Position numbers and translations under genes: made by a program. Of a stretch of 64,000 nucleotides of DNA, positions 6,996 through 62,100 are shown piece by piece. Source of the stretch: Bacteroides sp. (GTDB lineage Bacteria; Bacteroidota; Bacteroidia; Bacteroidales; Bacteroidaceae); contig JAJQAY010000042.1 of the NCBI GenBank assembly GCA_021203515.1, forward strand, positions 1 through 64,000, read 5' to 3'. Below the pieces are notes generated by a model. It ran no database searches and was not told where the DNA came from. It saw nothing but the letters and a program-made list of their open reading frames with translations. Each line of letters opens with the position of its first letter. Position 1 is the first letter of the stretch.

Positions 6996-7509
6996 ATGAC
7001 AATCTTGTTTAGAAAGTATCAACGCTTATCCAATCTGATGGATAAGAAATCTGCAAAGAAAGTTTATCCGGTTATCCTGTATGCGTATGGCAAAGGCTGC
7101 GACACTGACCGAAGTTGCCAAAACAATCAGTGAAAACTCCGGTGTGAGTGAGGGTGAGACGATAAGTGTCCTCAAAGACTACCGTACCTTATTGAAGAAA
7201 ATTCTGCTTTCGGGACGTGCCGTCAACGTGGACGGCTTGGGATACTTCTACCTCGCCGCCCAGAGCAAAGGCAGGGATAAAGCAGAGGAGTTTACCGCCA
7301 ATGACATTACGGGCTTGCGCATCTGCTTCCGTGCCAACAAGGATATATGCATTGTTGCCGCAGGCTCTACACGCTCCGATGGTCTGAACTTTAAGGATGT
7401 AGACCGCATAAAGGGCGGAGAATTTGCCGGAGAAGGCGGAGAGGACGGAAACGGTGGAAGCGGTGAAGGCGGCAAAGATGAAGACCAAGAGGAAAATCCG
7501 CTCGGATAA
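6996..7509 (+). pseudogene. HU-like DNA-binding protein with Gly-rich tail (HU-HIG type), one frameshift
   Basis: MTILFRKYQRLSNLMDKKSAKKVYPVILYAYGK continues in another frame as AATLTEVAKTISENSGVSEGETISVLKDYRTLLKKILLSGRAVNVDGLGYF. The C-terminus is GEGGEDGNGGSGEGG. Confidence 0.75.
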
Positions 7510-25905: not shown

Positions 25906-28900
25906 ATGGTAACTATGAAAGCAAAACAGCAGATCCTTTCCCTTTGTTTCTGGATATTTTTCCTCTTTACATATCAGCAGGTTGCAGCAATATCGCAGCC
26001 TTTTTCCTTGTTGTTTAAAACCTCTCCGGTACTGAATGAATTGCCTAGTAAGGATGTACAGTCTGTTTATCAGGATAGGGACGGTTATATCTGGATTTCC
26101 ACCCGTAACGGGCTTTTTCAGTACGACGGTTACTCTCTCACCACTTATAAGTCCAATCTCTTTCATTCCGATTTGTTGAATAATAACAATATTATGTGTG
26201 TGGGTGAGGACGGCCATCATCGTTTGTGGATAGGTACTTACAGTGGATTGAATGTATTGGATAAGCGGGCGGGCAATAGAAAAAGTGGTAGCTCCCGGAT
26301 TGACGGGTAACGGTGTTGCCTGCATCCTGATTACTCGTGATGACCGCATCTGGTTTGAAGCAGATAATGGGTTGTACGAATACCGTGAAGGCGAACAAAA
26401 CCCTTATCTGCTTTATAGCGAGAAAAACACGGAAGGCACATTGCCTGTTGTATCTATCAAATCTCTGTTCGAAGACGATCGGGGGGATATTTGGATCGGA
26501 ACGTGGGAGCATGGTTTGTTCCGTTATGAGAGCACTTCCGGCAGATTTCTGAGATATCCGAAGATGAATGAGCTAAACTCGGCTCATGTCGTTTTTCAAG
26601 ACAGTCGCAAGAATATCTGGGTGGGGACATGGCGCGGCGGATTGACGCTGCTGAAAGATGCTTATCAACCGGAAAAAACTAGCTGGGTAACTTTTCGATA
26701 TGACGAGAAGAACCCTTATAGTGTTTCGGATGATATAATCTATGCGATTTCGGAAGACCCGAACACACACGCCTTGTGGGTGGGAACACGTAAAGGACTA
26801 AGTATACTCCCTCAAAGAGAAGAATATACACCTACGGTTTCTTTTGAAAATTATTATCCGGCCGATTCGGAACATTCTATATCCAGTGACGAAGTGGCTT
26901 CTTTGTTGTGCGACCGCCAAGGTTTGATGTGGCTTGGTATGATTGGCGGAGGAGTTAATATAGTCAATACGCATGTTCCAGATTTTGAGTGGGACCGCTT
27001 GCCTGAGGCTAAACGTTTGTTGAAAACCTCTTCTGTGCGTAGCCTTTTTGTTGGATGATGAAAATAAACTGTGGCTGGGAGTTGGCACTTACGGATTGGG
27101 GGTGAAAGACCGGAAAACCGGAAAATTTACTTTCTATACGCAAATGCCGGAATTTGCCGGTTATACCAAAATTCCTACGGTAATGTCCATTAAGCAGTAT
27201 TCGGTAAACGGACATATCTGGGTTGCGGCTTATAATGGCGGCATTTATGAGATAGACAAACATGTTCCGGTGGCTCAACGGGTGAAGAAATATACTTCTC
27301 ATGATGTGGAATGGTTGTCTTCGAACTATGTGTATAACATATTTGAAGATTTGAAACATAATCTCTGGTTTGTCACCCGGAATGGGGTTTCTATGCGTAA
27401 TGCGGATGGAAAAGCTGTGCGATTTGACTCCTTGCAGGTGGGTAACTCCTTGATGAAAACATTCTTGTCGTACAGGTTGTCGAAGGAACAGACGGAGAAA
27501 TATGGGGAGCTACCAATACGCATGGCGTGATACGGCTAAAGAAGCAGGGGGGCATTATACGGTTTCAGAATACTCTGCGGAAAATGGAAAATTGAATAGT
27601 GTTCATGCGGACTGCATTTATAAAGATGAGCGGGGCGCATTTGGACCGGAACGGGCGGAAGTGGTCTGAACCTCTATGAGGAGCATACAGACGCTTTTCT
27701 GCCTGTACATGCCCAGTGGAATTTGCCGGGCGATGCGGTTGTCAGCATTCAAGAGGACAAGAACGGCAATTTATGGTTAGGAACTAATGCCGGATTGGTA
27801 AAACTTTCGGTTGCCGGTGATTTGGAAAATATAACATTCCGCTTATATACTACAGTAAACGGTTTACAAGATAACTTGTTTAATCGTGCAGCCGTAACGG
27901 TGGCGCCTGACGGTGAAATATTCTTTGGGGCATCGCGGATACAATAGTTTCTATCCCGATAGGCAAAACGATCAGGCTTTCTTGTCTCCCGTTGTAGTGA
28001 CGGACATTAAGATTTTCAATCAATCCTGAAGTGTTATCTCGGATAAAGAACTGAGAGACATATCCGATTTGGCACCTGGTTTTGCACGCAAGATACAATT
28101 AGACTATCGACATAATAACTTTACTGTCGAGTTTTCGGCACTGGAGTATGCCAATCCGGATCGCAATCGGTATGCCTACAAACTAGATGGCTTCGACACC
28201 AATTGGCAGTACACCGATGCTTCCAAACATTTTGCCTACTACAACAATCTGAAGCCTGGTGATTATACCCTCTATTTAAGGTCATCCAACTCCAATGGCA
28301 TTTGGAACGACAATACACTTAAAATGCAAATCATTGTTCTGCCGCCGCCTTGGAAGACGTGGTGGGCCTATACTATATATATAGTATTAATTCTGGGTGC
28401 TGCTTATTATGCCTATTTGGTAGTGCGTAACCGCATCCGCCTGCGCAATGCCCTGCACCTGCGCGAAATGGAACAGGCGAAGTCGGAAGAAGTAAACCAT
28501 GCCAAACTGCAATTTTTCACTAACATCACACACGAGTTACTTACTCCGCTAACAATCCTTTCCGCTTCGGTAGACGAGTTAAAGCACGTTGCTCCCGCCC
28601 ATAAAGGGCAGTACTCCGTAATGACAAACAATATCAACCGCCTGATACGCTTGTTACAACAGACACTTGAGTTCCGCAAGGCGGAGACGGGCAACTTGAA
28701 GTTGCGTGTTTCGCAGGGAGACCTAGCATTGTTTGTACAGCGCAGCCTCGACAGTTTCCGCCCATTGATGAAGAAAAAGGATATGGAGTTCCGTCTTTAT
28801 TGCAACCCCAAACCGTTTGAAGCCTATTTCGACTCCGACAAACTGGATAAGATACTATATAATTTGCTTTCCAATGCTTCCAAGCATAATCGTCCGGGAG

Positions 28901-30084
28901 GAGTGGTGAGCGTTGAACTGACGGGCAATGAAGACGGTTTTGCAGGTTTAGTGGTAAAGGACAATGGCTCCGGCATCTCGAAGGAAGCCCAAAAGGAACT
29001 CTTCAAGTGTTTTTACGAAGGCGATTATCGGAAATTCAAAACAATCGGCACCGGCATCGGGCTGTCATTAGTGCGCGACCTTGTTGTCTTGCATCACGGC
29101 ACGATTACTGTAGAGAGCGAAGAGGGACACGGCACGGCATTCATTGTCGCCATTCCCGTATTGCACGATGCATATGCGGAAACAGAAATAGACGATGTGG
29201 ATGTACCCGATGTGCTCGAAGATGTTGTCGGAAAAGACGTTGACACAGATACTGACGTGATGGAAACAAGCAATGCTGAGGTCTCCGTCTCGAAGTCTGC
29301 CCTGCTTTTAGTGGAAGACAACGAAGACCTGTTGGCACTTATGGTGAAACTGCTTGGGCATGAATACTCTGTATATACTGCTACAAACGGTCAGAAAGCG
29401 CTCGACGTTGTGCAACGGGAAGACATCGACTTGATTGTTTCCGATGTCATGATGCCCGTCATGGATGGCTTTGAACTGTGCAAGACTATAAAGAACAATC
29501 TCGATACCAGCCATATTCCCCTTATCCTGCTCACTGCCAAGAAACTGGAGGAAGACCGTGTAGAAGCCTACGAATCGGGAGCTGACGCCTTTATTACCAA
29601 ACCCTTCAACCTGAGCGTTCTTCACGCCCGCATCGGCAACTTGCTGAAAGCGCGGCAACGTGTCATGAAAGACTTCAAGAAGCAACTTGTATTCGAAGCC
29701 AAAGAATTGGACTACACCAGCCTTGACGAAGATTTCCTGCAACGTGCCATCGAGTGCGTGAATCGTCATCTCAATGATCCGGAGTTCGACCAAACGCAGC
29801 TTCTTGAAGAAATGCACACTACTAAGTCCACTTTCTTCTGCAAACTGAAGTCACTCACTGGGCTTACCTATTCTTCTTTTATCCGCAACATCCGCATGAA
29901 GGCTGCTTGCCGCATTATGGAAGAGAAAAAGCGAGTGCGCGTTTCAGAATTGGCTTATGCTGTGGGCTATAACGACCCGCGCTACTTTAGCGCCTGCTTC
30001 AAGAAAGAACTCGGTATGCAACCTTCTGAATATATGGAGAAGTTTACGAGTGGTGGGGTAGTAGAAGACGATACGGTGAAGTAA
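25906..30084 (+). pseudogene. Hybrid two-component sensor/regulator (HTCS, AraC output), multiple frameshifts in the sensor half
   Basis: Two-component propeller repeats (GYIWISTRNGLFQYDGYSL; IWIGTWEHGLFRYES) in fragments 25906-27947. Then an intact 28069-30084 with Y_Y_Y, histidine kinase (HAKLQFFTNITHELLTPLT), receiver (DLIVSDVMMPVMDG) and AraC HTH. Confidence 0.9.
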
Positions 30085-30125
30085 AAATATCTTTTTCTCT
30101 TAGCTTCCTTCCTTCCCCCTCTTAT

Positions 30126-30204
30126 CTTCTATGCACAAGATGTCATCTTATGTATCACAAGATGGCATCTTATGTTGCTCAAGATGGCATCTTGTGCATA
30201 GAAG
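30126..30204. repeat. Nested palindrome array, three 19-bp dyads at exact 22-bp spacing
   Basis: cacaagatgtcatcttatg (30134), cacaagatggcatcttatg (30156), ctcaagatggcatcttgtg (30178). Outer arms CTTCTATGCACAAGATG are inverted at 30126 and 30204. Confidence 0.85.
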
Positions 30205-30488
30205 GTAGGCGAGGTTATGTTCTTAGGTTGTAGGGTAAAGTTGCGAAGGTATGGGGAGAGCATAGAAGGGAACTGCAGATTAGTAATGTATCATTTATGT
30301 GGAAGAATGGTACAACCTATGTAGACGATTGTTTCATGCACCATATTTCTACCTGTTTGAAACTTTACAAGCAGTGTCCTATTCTGAATTAGTTTACGTT
30401 TGCATTGCAGGACGGGAAGAAGCATGCACTTTTCTGTTTCTGCAATGAGAACTTTTAAACTAATTAATTACTATCTTAAATTTATACG

Positions 30489-33400
30489 ATGGAAAGACAG
30501 AAGATTTCTGCGAGGGTGGGGATAAGCCGGGTGCTTTTTACTTTGGCTATCTGCATGGCTCTTTTCTTGAATGTCCGATATGTGGGCGCTCAAAACCGAA
30601 CAATTAACGTGAAAGGCGTGGTAAACGATGCAATGGGACCCGTAATCGGTGCCAGCGTTGTGGAGAAAGAAAACACTTCTAATGGTACGATTACTGATAT
30701 AGACGGTAATTTCTCTCTGAAAGTATCTTCCAATGCTACTTTAGTTGTCAGTTTTATCGGCTACAAGACACAAGAAGTTCCCGTAAACGGAAAGACTTCT
30801 TTTACCATTAATCTGGCAGAGGATACAGAAATGTTGGATGAAGTGGTTGTAGTAGGTTATGGTACAATGCGTAAGAAAGACCTGACGGGTTCTGTTATTC
30901 AAATCCGCCCCGACAAACTGGCGAATGAAGCCCCTAAGACAGTACAGGATGTGTTGCGTGGTACGCCGGGCCTGAATGTCGGTATGGATGCATCTGCCAA
31001 AGGCGGCGGTTCGTTGCAAATTCGCGGACAGCGTTCGCTTTACACGGACGGTAATCACAATGATCCGCTCATTATTCTCGACGGTATGATGTTCTACGGT
31101 GAACTCTCCGAAATAAATCCCGACGATATCGGCCAGATTGATGTGTTGAAAGATGCTTCCTCGGCTGCTGTTTATGGTGCGAAAGCTGCGAATGGCGTCA
31201 TTATCATCAGTACCAAGAAAGGTTTGCAAGGCAAGCCGATTATCCGGTTCAATTCTAATATCGGCATTTCTACAATGGGTGCTAATCGCAAAGTTTACGA
31301 TGCGGAAGGTTATATGAAGTATCGTAGTGACTGGTACACGGCTACTACCTATGGTGTAAATCCCGAAACCGGAACTTACGAAGAATATCAGACTAATAAG
31401 GATAAGTATCCTGCCGGATATTATGCCGCACCTACTCAGGCAAATCTTGATAAATATGGTATTAGTCTTGATCAATGGAGGGCCTATACCGGTGAAGGCT
31501 CGGATATTTCGGATAATGAGATATGGGGGAACAGACTGCTTTTGGAAGGTACCAATTTACAGAACTATCTTGACGGAAGAACGTTTGACTGGTATGACCA
31601 GTCTTTCCGTACAGCTCTCAACCAAGATTATAATGTCAGTTTGTCAGGTGCCAGCAATTATGTGAATTATTACTTTTCATTGGGATATCTGGACAATGAA
31701 GGGGTGGTTGCGGGAGATGATTACCGTGCTTTCAGTTCTAATATGAAAGTAAATGCCAAGGTAACAAAATGGTTGAAAATAGGTGCCAACGTTAATTTCC
31801 AGGATCGTACGGACGGCAATCAGAAGGTGGATTGGGAAAAGCAGATCACAGTGAACAGTCCCTTTGCTTCCTACAAGAATGAAGACGGTGAACTGGAAAT
31901 ATATCCGATGGGTAATGTTTCGGGAAACAGGGGATACAATTATGATTTTGAGCAGCAATATAAAGAGTATGAGTCGGGCTATACGGTGCTCAATACTATC
32001 TTGAATGCTAAAGTAAATCTCCCGTTCAATATCTCCTATACATTTAATATTGCTCCGCGTTATCAGTGGTTCTATAAGCGCACTTTCGACTCATCCAAAC
32101 ACCCCGATCGCCTTAACGGTTCGGCTGCTCGCAACAATGGTAAGCGTTTTGACTGGGCTTTGAACAATACGCTTACCTGGGATCAGACATTTGCACAGAA
32201 ACATCATGTGGTGTTGACTTTGGTACAAGAAGCGGAAGAACGTCGTAAATGGTCGGATGATCTTTCTGCCAATAATCTTGCGCCGACCGACGCTTTGGGA
32301 TTTCACTATGTGAAGGCTGCCGACAAAACATCCAGTTCTTTTAGTTCGGATGATATGCACGAGACCGCTGACGGTATGCTGGCGCGGGTGTTCTATTCTT
32401 ACGACAATCGCTATATGTTTACCGGTTCTTTCCGTCGTGACGGCTATTCTGCTTTTGGCACTTCCAATCCGAGAGCCAACTTCTTCTCTGCCGCCGTTGC
32501 CTGGACGTTTACTAATGAAAAGTTTTTCAACTGGAAGCCGTTGAGCGCCGGTAAACTGAGATTTTCTTGGGGACAGAATGGTAACCGTTCGTTAAGTAAT
32601 CCCTATATTGCCCTTGCCAATTTGAGCGCAGGCATGGGAGCTACGCAAGGTTACATTGACGCGAGCGGCAATACGGTGGAATATCGTTATTATACCATGG
32701 ACCGTCTGGCAAATACTCACCTTGAATGGGAAAAGACAACGGCTTGGAACATTGGTTTGGATTTTGGTTTCCTGAACGACCGCATCACCGGTAGCATTGA
32801 TTACTATAATATGCCTACCACAGATATGATTATGAATCAGTCTCTACCCGGATTTTCGGGATTTGGTTCTATCACTTGTAACTTGGGTGAAGTGCAAAAT
32901 CGCGGTATTGAAATATCTTTGAGCACTACCAATATTCGGAACAAAATATTGGAGTGGAATACCACATTGGGTTTCTCTTATAATAAGAATAAAATCAAGC
33001 ATCTTTATTATGAATATGAAAATGTGCTTGATGCGCAAGGAAATGTCATAGGAACGAAAGAAAGAGATGATATTTCGAATAAGTGGTTCATAGGACGGCC
33101 TATCGGTGCTATTTGGGACTATAAAGTGACTGGTATCTGGCAGAAAGATGAAGTAGAAGAAGCAGCCAAGTACGGTCAGCGTCCGGGTGATCCCAAAGTA
33201 TGGAACAATCCCGATAATGACAAAATCAATGCAGACGGCACAACGACTATCGTGTATGATAACGATGACAAAGTGTTCCTGGGTCAGACAAGCGCATCCT
33301 ATAATTGGTCGATGCGAAATGAGTTCGTATTCTTCAAGAATCTGACTTTCTCTTTCAATATTTATTCCAAGATGGGGCAAAAGAGCCAAAGTGAGAACTA

Positions 33401-33767: not shown

Positions 33768-35734
33768 ATGAATAAGATAAATAAAATAATAGCTTGCCTG
33801 ACTATTGCGGGCTGTATGTGTTCTTCATGTTCGGAAGACTTCTTGAAGCCGGATCCTCTATCGTTCTACGAACCGGGAAAAACATTTACCACGGTAGAAG
33901 GCTTGGAATCTGTATTGGCAAATCTGGACCGTCATATACGTACTTACTGGACGAACTATCAGGGAAGGGATATTGCCGTTCCTATTTATTCGCAATACAT
34001 GTATTCTGATTTGAATGTGGCAGCTAAGACGGACCAAAGCACTATTTTTGCCGATATTGCTACCCGTCTGACCCCTACTGACGGTTTGGGAGGTGATGAC
34101 AGCGAAGTCAATCAGTTGGGTTATTTCTGGGGCAAACTTATACCGCTATAAAATCTGCCAATACGGTAATCAGCTATATAGATAAAGTAGAAGGATTGAA
34201 AGAGGATATAAAGAATGAATATTTGGGTAGGGCTTATTTCCATCGTGCATTCCGCTATCTGTCGTTGGTATTCATGTTCAATGATGTTCCTTATGTGTCA
34301 CGCATTGTCGACTCCCCGAAGTTTGACTATCGCAGCACTTCCCGTGAAGCCATCCTGAAGAAGATGACGTTGGATATGGAATTTGCTGTTCAATGGGTAC
34401 CCGACCAAAAGGATATGGCAATGATCGGTATGGTGAATAAAGGGGCTTGCTGTATGTTGTTGGCAAAACTTTATCTCTCTTTGGGACGCTGGGATGATGC
34501 AATAAAACAATGTGATGCTTTGATTGGCGATCCTAATTATGAACTGATGAAACAGAGCTTTGGTACTTTTGTCAAACCTTTCAATAACGAGGCATGGCCT
34601 GTGACACGCAATGTCATTTGGGACTTACATCGTCCGGAGAATAAGTTGATTGCAGTCAATAAAGAAGTTATATTCGGCATGCCTGATCGGGGTATAGGTT
34701 CAAGTAACTCTTTTATTTATTTCAATACAATGCGTTCTTTAGTTCCATTCTGGAACAGTGCAAATCTGAAAACTCCCGCTCCTGATGGAAAGAAGTTCAT
34801 AGAGGCCTATGCGCGTTCTGATTCAAAATATAGTGGAAAATATGATTATACTAGGTCATTGGGACGTGGCACGGGTTATATTCGTCCTACCTATTATGCC
34901 CAACATGGCATGTGGTGTGTGAATGGAGTGGATGACAAAGGGGACTTGCGCCATAATTCGACTGTCGGTAATTGGGCTGCGACTTCCATGATGAAAGTGA
35001 ACAGCAAGGATTCTAAATTCTTGGGAGAATATGTACAGCAAACTTGGACTACAGATACTATTCGTGAATGGTATGGCTGACCTCATTATAAAGTATATTT
35101 GTTAGACCAGAATGCAGAATCGAAACAAAGTTCTACCAACTGGAATGGAGCAAACGGCAGTTCGACTACTGCCGGTAATGCCGACTGGTACTGCTATAGA
35201 CTGGCTGAAACCTACTTGTTGCGCGTTGAAACTAAATTTTATAACGGTGACCCGGTTGGAGCTGCCGCCGACGTGAACGAAGTACGCAAAAGAGCCCAGT
35301 GCGAGCGGTTGTATAACACTGTGACTATTGGTGATATCGTTGACGAACGTGCACGCGAACTTTACATGGAAGAATGGCGGTATATGGAACTTAGCCGTAT
35401 TTCATATTGTCTGGCACTAAGCGGAAAATCGGATGAATTTGGTAATACATACAATCCCGAAACTTACGATAAGCAGGAAGGAACTGATGCAAACGGCGGA
35501 AGTTATTGGTATCAACGTATCGTTCACTATAACGACTTCTACAATAAAAATCCTAAACTATTGGTGAAGAATCGTGCTTATGCAATTGATAAGCATAATT
35601 TGTACTTGCCTATCCCGCAATCAGCTATTGATGCCAATCGTTTGGGTAAGTTACGTCAAAACTATGGATACAATGGCTATGACGAAACTATTCCGATGTG
35701 GGAAACTTGGGAAGAAGCCGAGGCTAATAACTAA
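33768..35734 (+). pseudogene. RagB/SusD nutrient-uptake lipoprotein, one frameshift and one in-frame TGA
   Basis: Lipobox CSSCSEDFL. Frameshift near 34145. REWYG*PHYKVYLLDQNAES reads through TGA in the same frame. C-terminal RPQSAIDANRLGKLRQN-type SusD end. Confidence 0.9.
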
Positions 35735-36726: not shown

Positions 36727-37979
36727 ATGAAAACAAGACAATATTGGTGGCTACTGCTGGCGGTTGTATTATTACTGCCCGTTCAGGAGGCCTTCGCTAA
36801 AAAGAAAAAAGAGAAAGAAATAACCGAACGCGAACTTTGGTGCAATATTTTATATCAGATGGCTGCTTCGGTACTCAGTAATATGAGTGAAGGGAAGTTG
36901 CAGGAAAATATGTTGGTAGAGCTAAGTCCTACCTGGGACGGACGCGACAAGCGGGTGACATATATGGAATGCTTCGGGCGACTGATGGCGGGACTGGCTC
37001 CGTGGTTGTCGTTGCCCGATGATGAGTCGGCGGAAGGCACGCAGCGCAAGCAACTCCGCGAGTGGGCATTGAAGAGTTATGCGCAAGCCGTAGACCCCGA
37101 AGCAAAGATTATTTGCTTTGGCGTAGAGAGGGACAGCCGTTGGTGGATGCGGCTTATGTTGCCGAAAGTTTCCTGCGTGGATACGATGCCCTTTGGGTTC
37201 CGCTAGATAGTTTGACGAAACAGCGCTATATAGAAGAGTTTACCCAGTTGCGCCGCGTAGACCCTCCCTACACGAACTGGCTGCTGTTCTCCTCTACCGT
37301 TGAATGTTTTCTGAAGAAAGCGGGCGCTAAGAGTGATACATACCGCATTGTTTCCGCTCTCAGGAAGGTGGAAGAATGGTATGTGGGCGACGGTTGGTAT
37401 TCGGACGGTCCGGGTTTTGCTTTTGATTATTACAATAGTTTCGTTCTGCATCCCATGTATGTGGAGTGTCTTGAGGTATTTACAAATGGTGGCAAGAATA
37501 GAGTTTGGAATGCTTCCAACTGCAATTTCCCGCGTGCACAGAAACGCATGCAACGTTTCGGCGTAATATTGGAGCGCTTCATCTCTCCGGAGGGCACGTT
37601 CCCGGTGTTCGGCCGTTCCATTCCCTATCGCACGGGTACACTTCAACCGCTCGCTTTGCTGGCGTGGCGTGGCTGGTTGCCCAAGGAACTCCCGAACGGA
37701 CAAGTGCGGGCTGCTATGACGGCCGTTATCAAACGGATGTTTGGTGACAATCGCAACTTCAATGAAAAGGGTTTTCTGACTTTGGGCTTTATTGGCTCGC
37801 AGCCCCATACGTCAAACAGATATACGAACAACGGTAGCCTTTATATGGCATCCCTGGCATTCCTGCCCTTGGGCTTGCCGGCAGACCATCCTTTCTGGAC
37901 GGATGCGCCTCAGGCGTAGACTTCCAAGAAAGCATGGGAAGGAGGGAATTTCCCGATGGACCATGCTTACTATGAATAG
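36727..37979 (+). pseudogene. DUF2264 domain-containing protein (copy 2), frameshift plus in-frame TAG
   Basis: Paralogue of 24558-25811. Frame change near 37105. TAG at 37917 where copy 1 has TGG (QPWTSKKAWEG versus QA*TSKKAWEG). Confidence 0.85.
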
Positions 37980-49665: not shown

Positions 49666-51132
49666 TTAGTCTTGTTCAGTAAGAATCCATTTACCATTAG
49701 CGCGTCCGCCGATTCTAACTAATATACCTGCATCCCTTAGTTCGTCAATGATTTTTCTTGTTTGTCGTTCACTGATATTAAGTTTGTTTGCTAAGTCCGC
49801 ACGTGATATTTCAGGATTCTCTTTAATCAAAGTTTTTAGTTGTAGAACTTCCTTTGGATCACTTTGGATCGCTTTTGGATCGCTTTTGGATCGCATTGGA
49901 TTGTCCGACTCGCTTATTTGTCTCCATATCACTACCCTAAAGTCCTCCTCCTGATAAAACTCCGGTGTCTTCAACCTATAATCCAGACATTTATTGATAA
50001 TATCTTCCGTACCTGTACCCACCTTTTCGATGTATCCGTTCCAATACATTGGATCAGCCAATAGCTGATTGGTCGGTAATGACTTATGAGGTCCTTGTAG
50101 TTTTAGTACAGTCAGACCATAGGGCAGTGTCCCCGGATTCCAAACTTCCAGCCGGTTACGAAACAACATTATCTGTACGCTGGCATTACTGGTGTAATCC
50201 CGGTGGCAAACAGCATTAACAATCGCTTCCTTAACAGCATCTATCGGCAGTTCCGGTCGGGTAGGTACATCGGCTTTATCTCCTTCCGAACGTGTCCCTA
50301 CCCAATTATCAATGCGGCTCATTACGAAACTGGTAGCTTGGTCTACCAATTCAAACACATCGCAGCGATAAATCTGATAAGACGGCATCGGCTTTTCCAC
50401 CACATTCCCATAAAACTGTACACATTTTACTTCGGAAGTGATGAAATGCTTTTGCGGTTTTTTGCCGAAAAGAAGAATGGCGGCGTTGGCCAGCCTCCCT
50501 TTATCGTCAATTAAATCCAAATGTTTGAGCAAAGTCTCGGGAAGCGTGTCCACCGGAAGTGGAAAATTGCGCTTGACACGAGCCATGTGGATAAAGTTAC
50601 GCATTTTATTTTCATCCAGTTCTTCAAGGGTTGCCCCTGTGTCATTGGAAGCATCGAAGGGATACCAGCGGATATACTCTTTCTCTTCAAGGTAACGAAT
50701 TAGTGAGGCATATACCGATGTCCTTAACCCGTCAATGTCTACAAAAGTTTTGCGTACAATGTCCTGTTCCACTTTTTTGATAAATGCGGTTTCCTTGGGT
50801 TGCCGTTTGTCTTCGTCTATGCTTTTGATATAGATAAGCCGGAACTTATGTAGTAAAGTCGCCAAATCATATTCCCGTTCAGTCGGTGAAATACCTTCCG
50901 CATCTTCGGAACCGTATTTGTTCCCAAATAGTCCCAAGTAGATGTCGCTCATTTCTACTTCCTTCAGATAAACTTGTTGCGGAGTATGTTCAATGGCGGG
51001 AACTTCTTCAAAAATGAAAGGCTCAAAGAATTTTCCTAATAATACATCCGTCCGGATGTATTAGCAAAGCATTTCCCGCTCTTTTGCAAATTCGTTTTGC
51101 ACACTACTTATGAAAATCCTGATTCGCTTCAT
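49666..51132 (-). pseudogene. DUF4062-type N-terminus plus AlbA/HATPase_c_4-type ATP-binding and wHTH protein, in-frame TAA near the 5' end
   Basis: Complement reads MKRIRIFISSVQNEFAKEREMLC*YIRTDVLLGKFFEPFIFEEVPAIEHTPQQVYLKEVEMSDIYLGLFGNKYG. Then AVKEAIVNAVCHRDYTSNASVQIMLFRNRLEVWNPG and C-terminal ISRADLANKLNISERQTRKIIDELRDAGILVRIGG. Confidence 0.8.
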
Positions 51133-51477: not shown

Positions 51478-52097
51478 ATGGCAATATTATTTGATTGGTA
51501 TGAAGACCCGAAACCTACAAGTAAACAGGGAGAAGAGAAAACGTTGCATCCGCGCATCAAGTACAACGGTTCAAGAGGGACGGACGAGTTGCGCCGCCGC
51601 ATACAGGAATGGTGCTCACTGACGGAACCGATGTCACCGCTGTGCTTGATGCCCTTTCCCATATCATGGGACAGGAGTTGGCGGAGGGCAGGCAGGTTCA
51701 TCTCGACGGCATCGGCTATTTTCATCCCACGTTGACTTGTACGGAGCAGGTAACGGCTTCCACCAAACGGAAACTGACGAAAGTGAAGCTGAAAGGCATC
51801 AAGTTCCGTGCCGACCAAGCACTGAAGAATGAATTCGGCGCCCTTAAAGTGAAGTGCCTGAAAGGGGACCTGAACTTCAGACGGCTTACCAATGAAGAAA
51901 TAGACCAACGGTTGGAGAACTACTTCCGTACCCACCAATTTCTGCGGAGAACTGACTTCCAGGATGTATGCGGAATGGCGAGAACTACCGCAATGCGGCA
52001 CATCCGTCGCCTGCGCAGCGAAGGAAAGCTGAAAAACGTGGGTGGATTGATGCAACCGATTTATGTGCCGGGAGAAGGATATTACGGTGATAAATAG
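51478..52097 (+). pseudogene. HU-like DNA-binding protein fused to a winged-HTH-like region (HU-HIG type), one frameshift
   Basis: MAILFDWYEDPKPTSKQGEEKTLHPRIKYNGSRGTDELRRRIQEW continues in another frame as TDVTAVLDALSHIMGQELAEGRQVHLDGIGYF...FLRRTDFQDVCGMARTTAMRHIRRLRSEGKLKNVG. Confidence 0.75.
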
Positions 52098-57800: not shown

Positions 57801-58976
57801 GCCAAATATAATAAGGAAGGAGGCTATATACAAGTAACTTTGTCGTATGCCGAGGATAATAAAGATTTTGTCCAATTACGCGTCAGGGATAACGGTTGCG
57901 GCATTTCCAAAGAGAAGCAAAAAGAATTGTTCAAGCGTTTTTATGAAGGGGATTATCGCAAGTTCAATACGATAGGAACGGGTATCGGGCTGTCTCTGAC
58001 GAAAGATTTAGTCGAATTGCATGGCGGAACTATCCATGTGGAAAGTGATGAAGATAAAGGTACGGAGTTTATAGTGACTCTGCCCGTGGATCGCTCTTAT
58101 TTTAAGGAAGAGCAGATTGATGAGAAGGCGGTGCTGCCGGTGCAGAACATGATTACTTATGAGGATGACAGTTCGGAGGATACTGCCGATCTGATTTCTT
58201 CCGGAAATGAAAAACTGCATAACCTGCTTGTTGTTGAAGATAATGAGGAATTGCTCCAACTGATGATGCGTCTGCTTCATCGCGATTACAATGTGTTTAC
58301 TGCCGAAAACGGCAGAGAGGCGATTACTATTGTAGAGAATGAAGATATAGATTTGATTGTTACCGATATAATGATACCCGTAATGGACGGCATTGAACTT
58401 TGCAAATATGTGAAAAGTAAAATAGAAATCAGTCATATCCCTGTCATTTTGCTTACTGCTAAAAATAAAGAAGAAGACCGGGCAGAAGCGTATGAGATAG
58501 GTGCGGATGCATTTATCAGTAAACCTTTCAATCTTGCAGTGTTACATGCTCGTATTCGTAACTTGTTGAAATACAAAGAACGTATGGCAAAGGATTTCAA
58601 AAACCAATTGGTGTTTGAAGTGAAAGACCTGAACTATACCAGCATCGACGAGGAGTTCATGCAGCGTGCCATTGATTGTGTGAACCGACATTTGGAAGAT
58701 TGCGAGTTTGACCAGACGCAGTTTGTAGATGAGATGGGGACCAGTAAATCCACTCTTTACAAGAAACTCAAATCGCTTACCGGGCTGAACACTTCCGCCT
58801 TTATCCGTAATATCCGTTTGAAGGCGGCTTGCCGCATCATGGAGGAGAAAGGAAATGCCGTTCGTGTCTCCGAACTGGCTTATGCGGTAGGCTTCAATGA
58901 TCCGAAGCATTTCAGTTCCTGCTTCAAGAAAGAATTCGGGATGCTGCCAACGGAATATTTGGAACGGTTTGTGTAA
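54831..58976 (+). pseudogene. Second hybrid two-component sensor/regulator (HTCS), frameshifts and an in-frame TAG in the sensor half
   Basis: GLPTDEVQKIYQDKEGFIWFATRYGLCKYDGYQATVYKSN; frameshift at C8 run near 55490; alternate frame INERNSAHVIY*DIDKRIWVGGWDCGLSLL; kinase, receiver and AraC domains 56499-58976. Confidence 0.9.
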
Positions 58977-59163
58977 TAATCGGATAACCTTCTCCCTTAC
59001 TTGTGTAAGGGAGAATTATGGTTTAAATAGGTCGAAAAACTAAAATTCTACTTTACGGAACTATTTTTGGAGCCTTTCTGAACTGCTTGTTTTTACATTT
59101 GCCCCTGTCTTCGTAGCTGGAGTATGGAGACGGTGATTAATGTTTAATCTTAAAGTTTATACA

Positions 59164-62100
59164 ATGAAAAGACAAAAATTCCTTGAAGGACCTGGACTGA
59201 AGGCGTGCTTCGCTTTGGCAGTTTATATGGTTCTTTTGTTGAATGTTCAGTTCTTGAACGCACAGAGTTCAACAATCAATGTAAAAGGTGTGATGAATGA
59301 TGCAATGGGGCCGATTATCGGTGCCAGTGTCGTGGAAAAGGGAAATACGGCTAATGGTACGATTACCGATATGGATGGTAATTTTTCTCTTTCAACAAGG
59401 CCGGATGCAACACTTACAGTCTCTTATATAGGATATAAGACGCAGGAAGTGCGGGTAGTAGACGGAAAGGCAATCAATGTTACATTGAAGGAGGACACTG
59501 AGGTGCTGGATGAAGTCGTGGTCGTGGGTTTCGGTACACAAAAGAAAGTAAACTTGACGGGGACTGTCGATGTAATCGACAACAAGCAGTTACAGGAACG
59601 CCCGGTAGCAAATGCGGTACAAGCATTGCAGGGTGTAGTGCCCGGTTTGCAGATTACACAAGGCAGCGGTAGTTTGGAGTCACGTCCCAGTATCAATGTT
59701 CGTGGTACGGCTACTATCGGTGAGGGCTCTTCGGGTAGTCCGTTGGTATTGATTGATGGTATGGAGGCTGATTTGAACTCTATTAATCTGCAGGATATTG
59801 CCAGTATTTCTGTATTGAAGGATGCGGCAGCTTCATCTATTTATGGTTCTCGTGCACCGTTCGGTGTTATTTTGGTAACTACGAAAGCCGGTGGAAGCGA
59901 GGGGAAGGTGTGTATTAATTATAATAATAACTTCCGATTCAGTACACCTGTGCACATGAACAACATGATGAACTCATTAGATTTTGTTACATGGGTAAAC
60001 GATACGCATATCAATAAAGGAGATAATGCCTATTTTGAAGGTACACGTTTTGACCGGCTTGTGGAGTATTTTTATGCCAAGCCTTATAGCCAGGGTGTGA
60101 GGATGACTGATAGCGGTGAACTTGTATATGCTTTGCCGGAATATAATGACAACGGACAGTGGAAAGGAGGTTTCTCTACCGGTGTGGATGATGTGGACTG
60201 GTATGATATGCTTTATAAAGACTGGACTTTTCTCAAGAACACAATTTTAGCGCAAACGGCGGCAGTAAGAAATTCAATTACTACGCATCCGGGAGTTACT
60301 TCGGTCAGGGTGGCTTTTTAAATCTCGGTGATGAGGATTTGAAACGTTATACGGCAACGGTGAAGATTAACTCTGAATTGACGGACTGGTTGAAGTTTCA
60401 CTACAGCATGCGTTTCACGCGCGAAGATTATAAACGTCCGGCAGCATCGACAGATTATTTATATGAAAGTTTGGCATTGAAGGCTTGGCCGGTAATCCCT
60501 GCTTATGATCGTAATGGATACCATTTCTTTAGTGATGATACATCGGTATGGGGATTGGAATCCGGTGGCACGGACAAGACACAGACTGACAATACTTACC
60601 ATCAACTGGGCTTCACGATAGAACCGGTGAAGAACTGGATAACCAGCGTCGATTTTAATTATCGCATCAAGTCGGCAAACCGTTATTGGGATAGTCAGGC
60701 TATTGTCAACCATGATTTGAATGGAATCCCTATGTGTGCAAGTCTGCAACGAATGTGCACGAGGATTATCTGAAGAATAATTACTATAATTTCAATGTGC
60801 GTTCGGAATACTCTCACACATTTGCCGAAAAGCACAACTTCCATATTCTTGCCGGTATGCAGATTGAAGACCTGAAAGAAGCCAAATTCGGACTACAACG
60901 TAATGGCATTATGATTGCCAGCAAACCGGAAATTAATATGACTACGGGACTGGAAAACGGTACGGCTGTTACTCCCAGCCTCAATGGAGAACGCAATGAA
61001 TGGGCAACGGTAGGTGTTTTCGGGCGTCTGAACTATGACTATAAAGGTAAATATTTGTTGGAAGCCAATGTTCGTGGCGATGGTTCTTCACGTTTCCGTA
61101 AAGGAAATCAGTGGAAGGTTTTCCCTTCTGTTTCTTTAGGTTGGAATGTTGCTGAAGAAAGTTTCTTTGAAGGTGCACGGGGTTTTATGGATATGTTTAA
61201 GTTGCGTTTCTCTTACGGTTCGCTAGGTAATCAGAATACAGACAATTGGTATTATACGTTCCAGACACCTTCCGCATCACCTTCGGGCGGTGGTTGGTTA
61301 CAGAATGGTGTGAAGCCGAATGTGGCGAGTGCGCCGGGATTGGTTTCCGAAACGTTGACTTGGGAAACTATTGAAACCTATAACGTCGGTGTTGACTGGG
61401 GTTTCCTGAATAATCGTTTGACCGGTTCTTTTAACTGGTACATCCGTAATACGAAGGATATGGTAGGTAAGCGCCCGCGTTGCCTGACATCTTAGGAACG
61501 AATGTTCCTAATATCAATAATACCGACTTACGTACACAAGGTTGGGAATTTAGTATCGGCTGGAAAGACCGCCTGAAGAACGGATTATCTTATGGCGCAA
61601 GATTTATGCTTTATGACTCTCGTACCAAGATTACGCGCTATCCTAATAATCCGACTCATTCTATAGATACTTATGTAGAAGGAAGGTATATCAATGAAAT
61701 CTGGGGATATGAAACAATCGGTATCGCTAAATCGGATGATGAAATGAGTGCTCATCTGGCAACATTGGATAAAGGTGGGCAGAATGCCTTGGGCTCTGAT
61801 TGGAAGGCCGGAGACATCATGTATAGAGACCTGAATGGCGATGGTAAAATCTCCGGAGGAGCCGGAACGGTGGAAGACCCGGGTGACAGAAAGGTTATCG
61901 GTAACAGCACGCCTCGTTTCCAATTCGGTTTGGATTTGAATGCCGCATGGAAAGGATTTGATTTACGTGTCTTCTTCCAGGGAGTGATGAAACGTGATTA
62001 TTGGCAGGGTAGTGATTACCTGTTCGGAGCGACCGGTAGTGGACTTTGGGGAGCTTGTGGTCTTGATGCTGTAGGTGATTATTATCGTGATGAAAATACC

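Follow-up and report, generated by a model that had tools for sequence, protein, structure and literature searches.

The window analysed here is a 64,000-nucleotide stretch of the genome of a Bacteroides sp. (contig JAJQAY010000042.1). It contains a junction at which the C-terminal part of an HTCS gene ends at 30084 and a gene for a SusC-type TonB receptor begins at 30489, both as initially annotated. Between the two genes lies an array of three dyad units flanked by complementary arms (Table 1). The HTCS (propeller pieces plus the kinase/AraC part, 26252-30084) is broken into several frames, as are a SusD-like gene (33768-35734) and a DUF2264 gene (36727-37919); either the locus is decaying or the assembly contains frameshift errors. 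The window also contains a short tandem repeat of ~11 bp (CTTTGGATC) at 49852-49901.

Table 1. Features of the HTCS-SusC junction (window coordinates).
Feature	Position	Strand	Basis
22-bp unit 1 (CACAAGATGTCATCTTATGTAT)	30134..30155	+	sequence, repeat finder, direct count
22-bp unit 2 (CACAAGATGGCATCTTATGTTG), symmetry centre 30165	30156..30177	+	sequence, repeat finder, direct count
22-bp unit 3 (CTCAAGATGGCATCTTGTGCAT)	30178..30199	+	sequence, repeat finder, direct count
Left arm CTTCTATG, complementary form shared with right arm	30126..30133	.	
Right arm CATAGAAG; looser purine-rich continuation to about 30214	30197..30204	.	
Stretch present here and largely missing in homologous HTCS-SusC junctions; approximate, ends not sharp	30085..30295	.	
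Block conserved among HTCS-SusC junctions, outside the array	30296..30367	+	
TACGTTTG, fits the -7 box consensus of Bacteroides, TAnnTTTG	30395..30402	+	

We confirmed from the sequence, a repeat finder, TRF and a direct count that the three dyads start at a spacing of exactly 22 bp. They had been described as identical palindromic 19-mers. They are odd dyads but are imperfect, with eight of nine pairs matching in each (odd centre not counted). The core AAGATGNCATCTT is exact in all three (at 30137, 30159 and 30181), but the third copy starts with CTCAAG and not CACAAG. The symmetry claimed for the whole 79 bp about 30165 was borne out as a near-palindrome, in which 33 of 39 pairs match over 30126-30204. 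The arms, for which the consensus in outward reading is GTGCATCGAAGGTAG, run on imperfectly to 30116-30214 and are 80% complementary over 49 bp. RNA folding of the array gave -55.3 kcal/mol (z = -9.9), and the hairpin is very stable on both strands. The exact core occurs 36 times in this 4.3-Mb genome, compared to 0 times for a reversed control pattern. By both measures, core counts and folding z score, the array is far beyond chance. A search of Rfam with the array gave only sub-threshold look-alikes of miRNA hairpins, and a plasmid or phage origin of the array was considered and had no match.

The array is not particular to this junction. Relatives of the 79-mer are found in at least 16 places on 12 contigs of the same genome, and all 16 are outside called genes, that is, intergenic; this copy number is low relative to that of classical REPs. 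The initial annotation had proposed a role specific to this locus, in which the array would serve as an operator for the HTCS, or for another local regulator of SusC. The location between the two genes and the same-face spacing of the dyads are what such an operator would have, but the array is scattered over 16 unrelated intergenic places, that is, 15 others at unrelated genes. It is also missing from the homologous HTCS-SusC junctions of other Bacteroides and from a paralogous junction in the window itself (58223-59567). The part of the junction that is conserved starts at ~30296, downstream of the array, with a dyad-rich block to 30367 that is likely the real HTCS-responsive region. The conserved promoter-proximal block as a whole spans 30296-30402, and TACGTTTG at its end, which fits the consensus TAnnTTTG of the Bacteroides -7 box, is likely the SusC promoter. 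We consider an operator role for the array very improbable. One homologous junction, in genome G145 (L131:897-982), bears a different, independent 22-bp array (TTTGCCATTTATCTTAAGATGT x 3.9) in a comparable position.

Comparisons of junctions and of more closely related loci revealed neither a clean empty site nor a clear target-site duplication. No target duplication was recognised around 30085-30295. The junction homologues lack ~190-210 bp, although they are diverged, and one closer comparison showed a replacement.

Placement of the arrays relative to genes is biased. Between genes in the same direction, they lie nearer the 3' end of the upstream gene in 5 of 6 cases in this genome and in 11 of 12 in RGIG8771 (G025, a MAG from water deer), 16 of 18 in total. 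Some copies sit between divergent genes. The arms, read inward, are 35% C and 13% G. It is conceivable that the array functions at the RNA level as a 3' end element, with the hairpin as a block to exonucleases and with release by Rho aided by a lead-in that is rich in C and poor in G on both strands, to produce bidirectional 3' ends. The 3' bias, the arm composition and the stability of the hairpin on both strands are consistent with this. We nonetheless think it improbable: there is no U tract, the copies next to HU-HIG genes (below) are in 5' regions, copies between divergent genes do not fit, and the 22-bp phasing and the matching of subfamilies to proteins are left unexplained. An RNA 3' end role can coexist with protein binding. 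A terminator role was also suggested initially. One of the intrinsic type is unlikely because, of the 32 arms examined in this genome, none was followed by a T run (at least four T within 45 nt after the hairpin).

About 20 nt of arm sequence is shared among the copies in this genome, indicative of common terminal inverted repeats. Compensatory evolution of the arms was supported only at arm positions 6-12 in this genome (p = 0.0002). For the whole arms it was rejected; the trend was reversed in RGIG8771, in which the two ends differ in type.

The family has a patchy distribution among relatives. Exact tandem pairs were found in this genome, RGIG8771, B. timonensis, B. cellulosilyticus, B. stercorirosoris and B. 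merdavium, and a shorter core pattern in 11 of 160 Bacteroides genomes. The number of units ranges from 1 to 5, with three in 49 of the 68 copies examined. One locus with matching flanks (L058, L062) differs in unit number, which is three in B. timonensis but four in B. cellulosilyticus. The 33 arrays of RGIG8771 have the same three-unit layout; in almost all of them the middle unit is perfect and one of the two terminal units deviates. Units at the same position in different loci of that genome are more alike (0.89) than are neighbours within a locus (0.84), which argues for spread of the complete three-unit element. A surrounding element of ~240 bp is common to 15 copies from the B. cellulosilyticus group. 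The flanks beyond the dyads in RGIG8771 (L053-L100) keep a degenerate 22-bp periodicity with a purine-rich unit; autocorrelation there is 0.321 at lag 22 and 0.300 at lag 44, compared to about 0.26 elsewhere, and flanks in the genome studied here have much less of this periodicity. In Bacteroidales Md513_bin13 (L070, 5254-5416) an AAGATG-type array lies within complementary arms of ~40 bp and unrelated sequence.

We found that arrays of this family adjoin a particular kind of gene. In genomes of the B. cellulosilyticus type, an HU-like gene adjoins one copy and truncated remnants of the HU-like gene adjoin others. The neighbour belongs to the HU-HIG family (PF18291, TIGR01201); the protein encoded next to the array in the genome studied here matches PF18291 with 61.5 bits (cut-off 26.2). 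An AlphaFold2 model of that protein has an HU-like core (pLDDT 83) and an N-terminal beta hairpin. The PDB structures that match it best are of HU/IHF proteins, among them that of a Bacteroides vulgatus member (4fmr).

We searched for the HU-HIG family in three genomes, which yielded 24, 34 and 11 matches. An AAGATG array is directly upstream of one HU-HIG gene in this genome (C3:45058-45438), of one in RGIG8771 and of two paralogs in G084. The same arrangement occurs in G064, G136, G177 and G088, which makes seven Bacteroides genomes in total and no fewer than seven species, and the last AAGATG unit ends 59-128 bp before the HU-HIG start codon. The four array-linked proteins of the first three genomes form one clade among 57 paralogs (support 100/93), and none of 500 shuffles was equally clustered. 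They are 62-83% identical to each other, in contrast to 38-46% identity to the next paralogs. The adjacency in related species may have been inherited once and not repeatedly maintained.

Arrays and proteins have diverged together. In G084, of the B. cellulosilyticus group, the home array of one paralog (L334) has the form AAAGATG..CATCTTT, which is that of dispersed set A (A in 23 of 25 and T in 24 of 25). The home array of the other (L336) has the form CAAGATG..CATCTTG, which is that of dispersed set B (C in 24 of 25 and G in 22 of 25). Two further HU-HIG genes of the genome studied here have arrays with dispersed relatives. Upstream of the one at C125 is an array with the unit TCAAAACATCCGGGTGTTTTGA, for which the rest of the genome has about a dozen relatives. 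Downstream of the other, at C33, is the array TAAAAGCCTTTTA, whose relatives are at C30, C111, C17, C135 and C148.

For this genome and G084 together, a 22-bp array was upstream of 16 of 57 HU-HIG genes compared to 10 of 246 control genes (Fisher p = 4e-7); for this genome alone, p = 0.003. Control genes for RGIG8771 and G084 were few or array-biased. With both flanks counted, this genome was the only one with a clear excess of arrays near HU-HIG genes (0.47 vs 0.21 per kb in controls). The densities were 0.62 vs 0.55 in G084 and 1.01 vs 0.93 in RGIG8771, where controls were array-biased or small. Flank similarity among sister HU loci was uninformative because some pairs are simply syntenic. 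At the threshold used, 41 of 68 HU-HIG loci had no detectable array. Two HU-HIG matches lie in the window itself (7093-7350 and 51478-51848), and a lag-22 array was not detected in the flanks of either.

Arrays with this period are common in Bacteroides. In 20 random 20-kb pieces from 20 Bacteroides species, the commonest period found by TRF was 22, with units that differ by species. A lag scan of noncoding DNA found 12 lag-22 arrays in the sample from this genome and 22 in that from other Bacteroides species, compared to a mean of ~0.6 for other lags; lag 44 was raised too. Outside Bacteroides there was one lag-22 array in each of two samples from other families and none in 400 kb of E. coli. 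Lags 14, 21, 28 and 35 in some genomes resemble 7-mer repeats and were left out of the 22-bp class. Many of the 22-bp units have visible dyads, and only 10 of 48 arrays passed a shuffle test on the single unit. A second abundant 22-bp family in this genome, GTTCCCCGGTGGGGAAC, is present at L177, L181, L183, L186 and ~30 places. None of the ~30 places of this GTTCCCC family, which was chosen blind to HU genes, adjoins a listed HU-HIG gene. A pairing of every 22-bp array with an HU-HIG gene is therefore not supported, and the pairing is not universal from the other side either, since most HU-HIG loci have no detectable array.

Based on the dispersal of the array, its adjacency to HU-HIG genes and the co-divergence of the two, we favour, with reasonable though limited confidence, the notion that this is a dispersed, REP-like array with a dedicated HU-HIG protein as the candidate binder. 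That is, the repeat is probably the putative binding array of that protein and not a switch for the adjacent sugar-uptake genes. HU and IHF are DNA-bending dimers. Most likely, an HU/IHF-type protein would bind the dyads as dimers that sit two helical turns apart, along a single face of the DNA. Dimers on dyads 22 bp apart would point in almost the same direction and could form a co-operative array. The initial proposal that a dimeric regulator binds co-operatively on one face would survive in general form, with an HU-HIG protein and not the HTCS as the candidate. The bound protein could bend or bridge DNA. The location of the home array upstream of the HU-HIG gene suggests autoregulation, in which the protein would repress or tune its own gene. 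The dispersed copies, mostly just downstream of genes, might then be nucleoprotein nodes, or simply selfish copies, and the family would spread by copying of the whole three-unit element in the fashion of REPs or MITEs. HU/IHF proteins are usually only weakly sequence-specific, and this counts against a dedicated array.

It is also possible that the array is a plain REP- or MITE-like selfish repeat, mobilized by some transposase. The HU-HIG gene would then be a passenger, or the repeat would have landed beside it by chance and been inherited there by relatives. The repeat is dispersed, intergenic and hairpin-forming, has a variable number of units and is patchy among genomes, and the remnants of HU genes beside several copies look like the product of copying and truncation of a larger unit. 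Several findings argue against this. Proteins adjacent to AAGATG arrays are from one clade, two paralogs match two dispersed subfamilies, and two more HU-HIG paralogs have dispersed families of their own. In addition, the REP-type transposase is missing: there were 0 matches to the Y1 RAYT transposase profile PF01797 in this genome at E <= 0.001, and control genomes were positive. We consider a purely selfish repeat unlikely, but a good deal less so than the RNA-level and operator roles.

The closest described repeat is BrickBuilt of Porphyromonas gingivalis, a MITE/minisatellite of 23-nt tandem repeats with about 19 intergenic elements (PMC4596501). BrickBuilt comes from a bacterium of the same order and likewise has a variable number of units, long stem-loops and no internal cognate transposase, but its elements have IS5-like terminal repeats with a leader and a tail, and contain as many as ~23 units. 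The family described here has a period of 22 and not 23, neither its units nor its arms match the published terminal inverted repeats in sequence, and a pairing with an HU-HIG gene is unreported in the parts of the BrickBuilt account considered here (PMC4596501). The resemblance to MITEs is in the terminal inverted repeats shared across copies (arms of ~20 nt in this genome, the ~240-bp element in the B. cellulosilyticus group). Among the loci inspected, none showed an autonomous parent transposon.

In its logic, the system nearest to this one is REP/RAYT. REPs, BIMEs and REPINs with their RAYT (TnpA-REP) are likewise dispersed intergenic palindromes, often at the 3' ends of genes, with a home copy by the cognate gene. 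The partner here is of the HU/IHF type and not a Y1 transposase, the odd dyads are in a fixed 22-bp tandem, and RAYT-REP was rejected for lack of PF01797 in this genome. The matS sites of MatP and parS sites of ParB are short, palindromic chromosome-organising sites, scattered and bound by a dedicated protein. The arrays resemble them in being scattered short palindromes with a (putative) dedicated protein. They differ in having several paralogous protein/site pairs per genome, a 22-bp tandem arrangement, a patchy species range and another protein family.

The partner gene belongs by profile and predicted fold to the HU-HIG branch of the HU/IHF superfamily (PF18291, TIGR01201). The open-access literature searched yielded neither dispersed array families dedicated to this branch nor any account of Bacteroides 22-bp arrays or HU-HIG cognate repeats, which is weak evidence for novelty. 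More broadly, and tentatively, a good share of the many paralogous HU-HIG proteins might each recognise a private, dispersed family of dyad arrays with 22-bp phasing. These would be parallel nucleoid-organising or selfish systems on a single chromosome, in which array and protein co-diverge; we give this a little less than an even chance.

The known dispersed palindromes with a cognate protein are mainly REP/RAYT. If pairing with an HU/IHF-type protein holds across several paralogs, it would provide a function for an HU-like family that is large in a dominant gut genus (11-34 members per genome in the three searched), and would account for the 22-bp periodicity that is prominent in Bacteroides intergenic DNA. 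The HU-HIG/array pairs would also be ready sets of proteins and sites for tests of sequence-specific binding by HU-type proteins.
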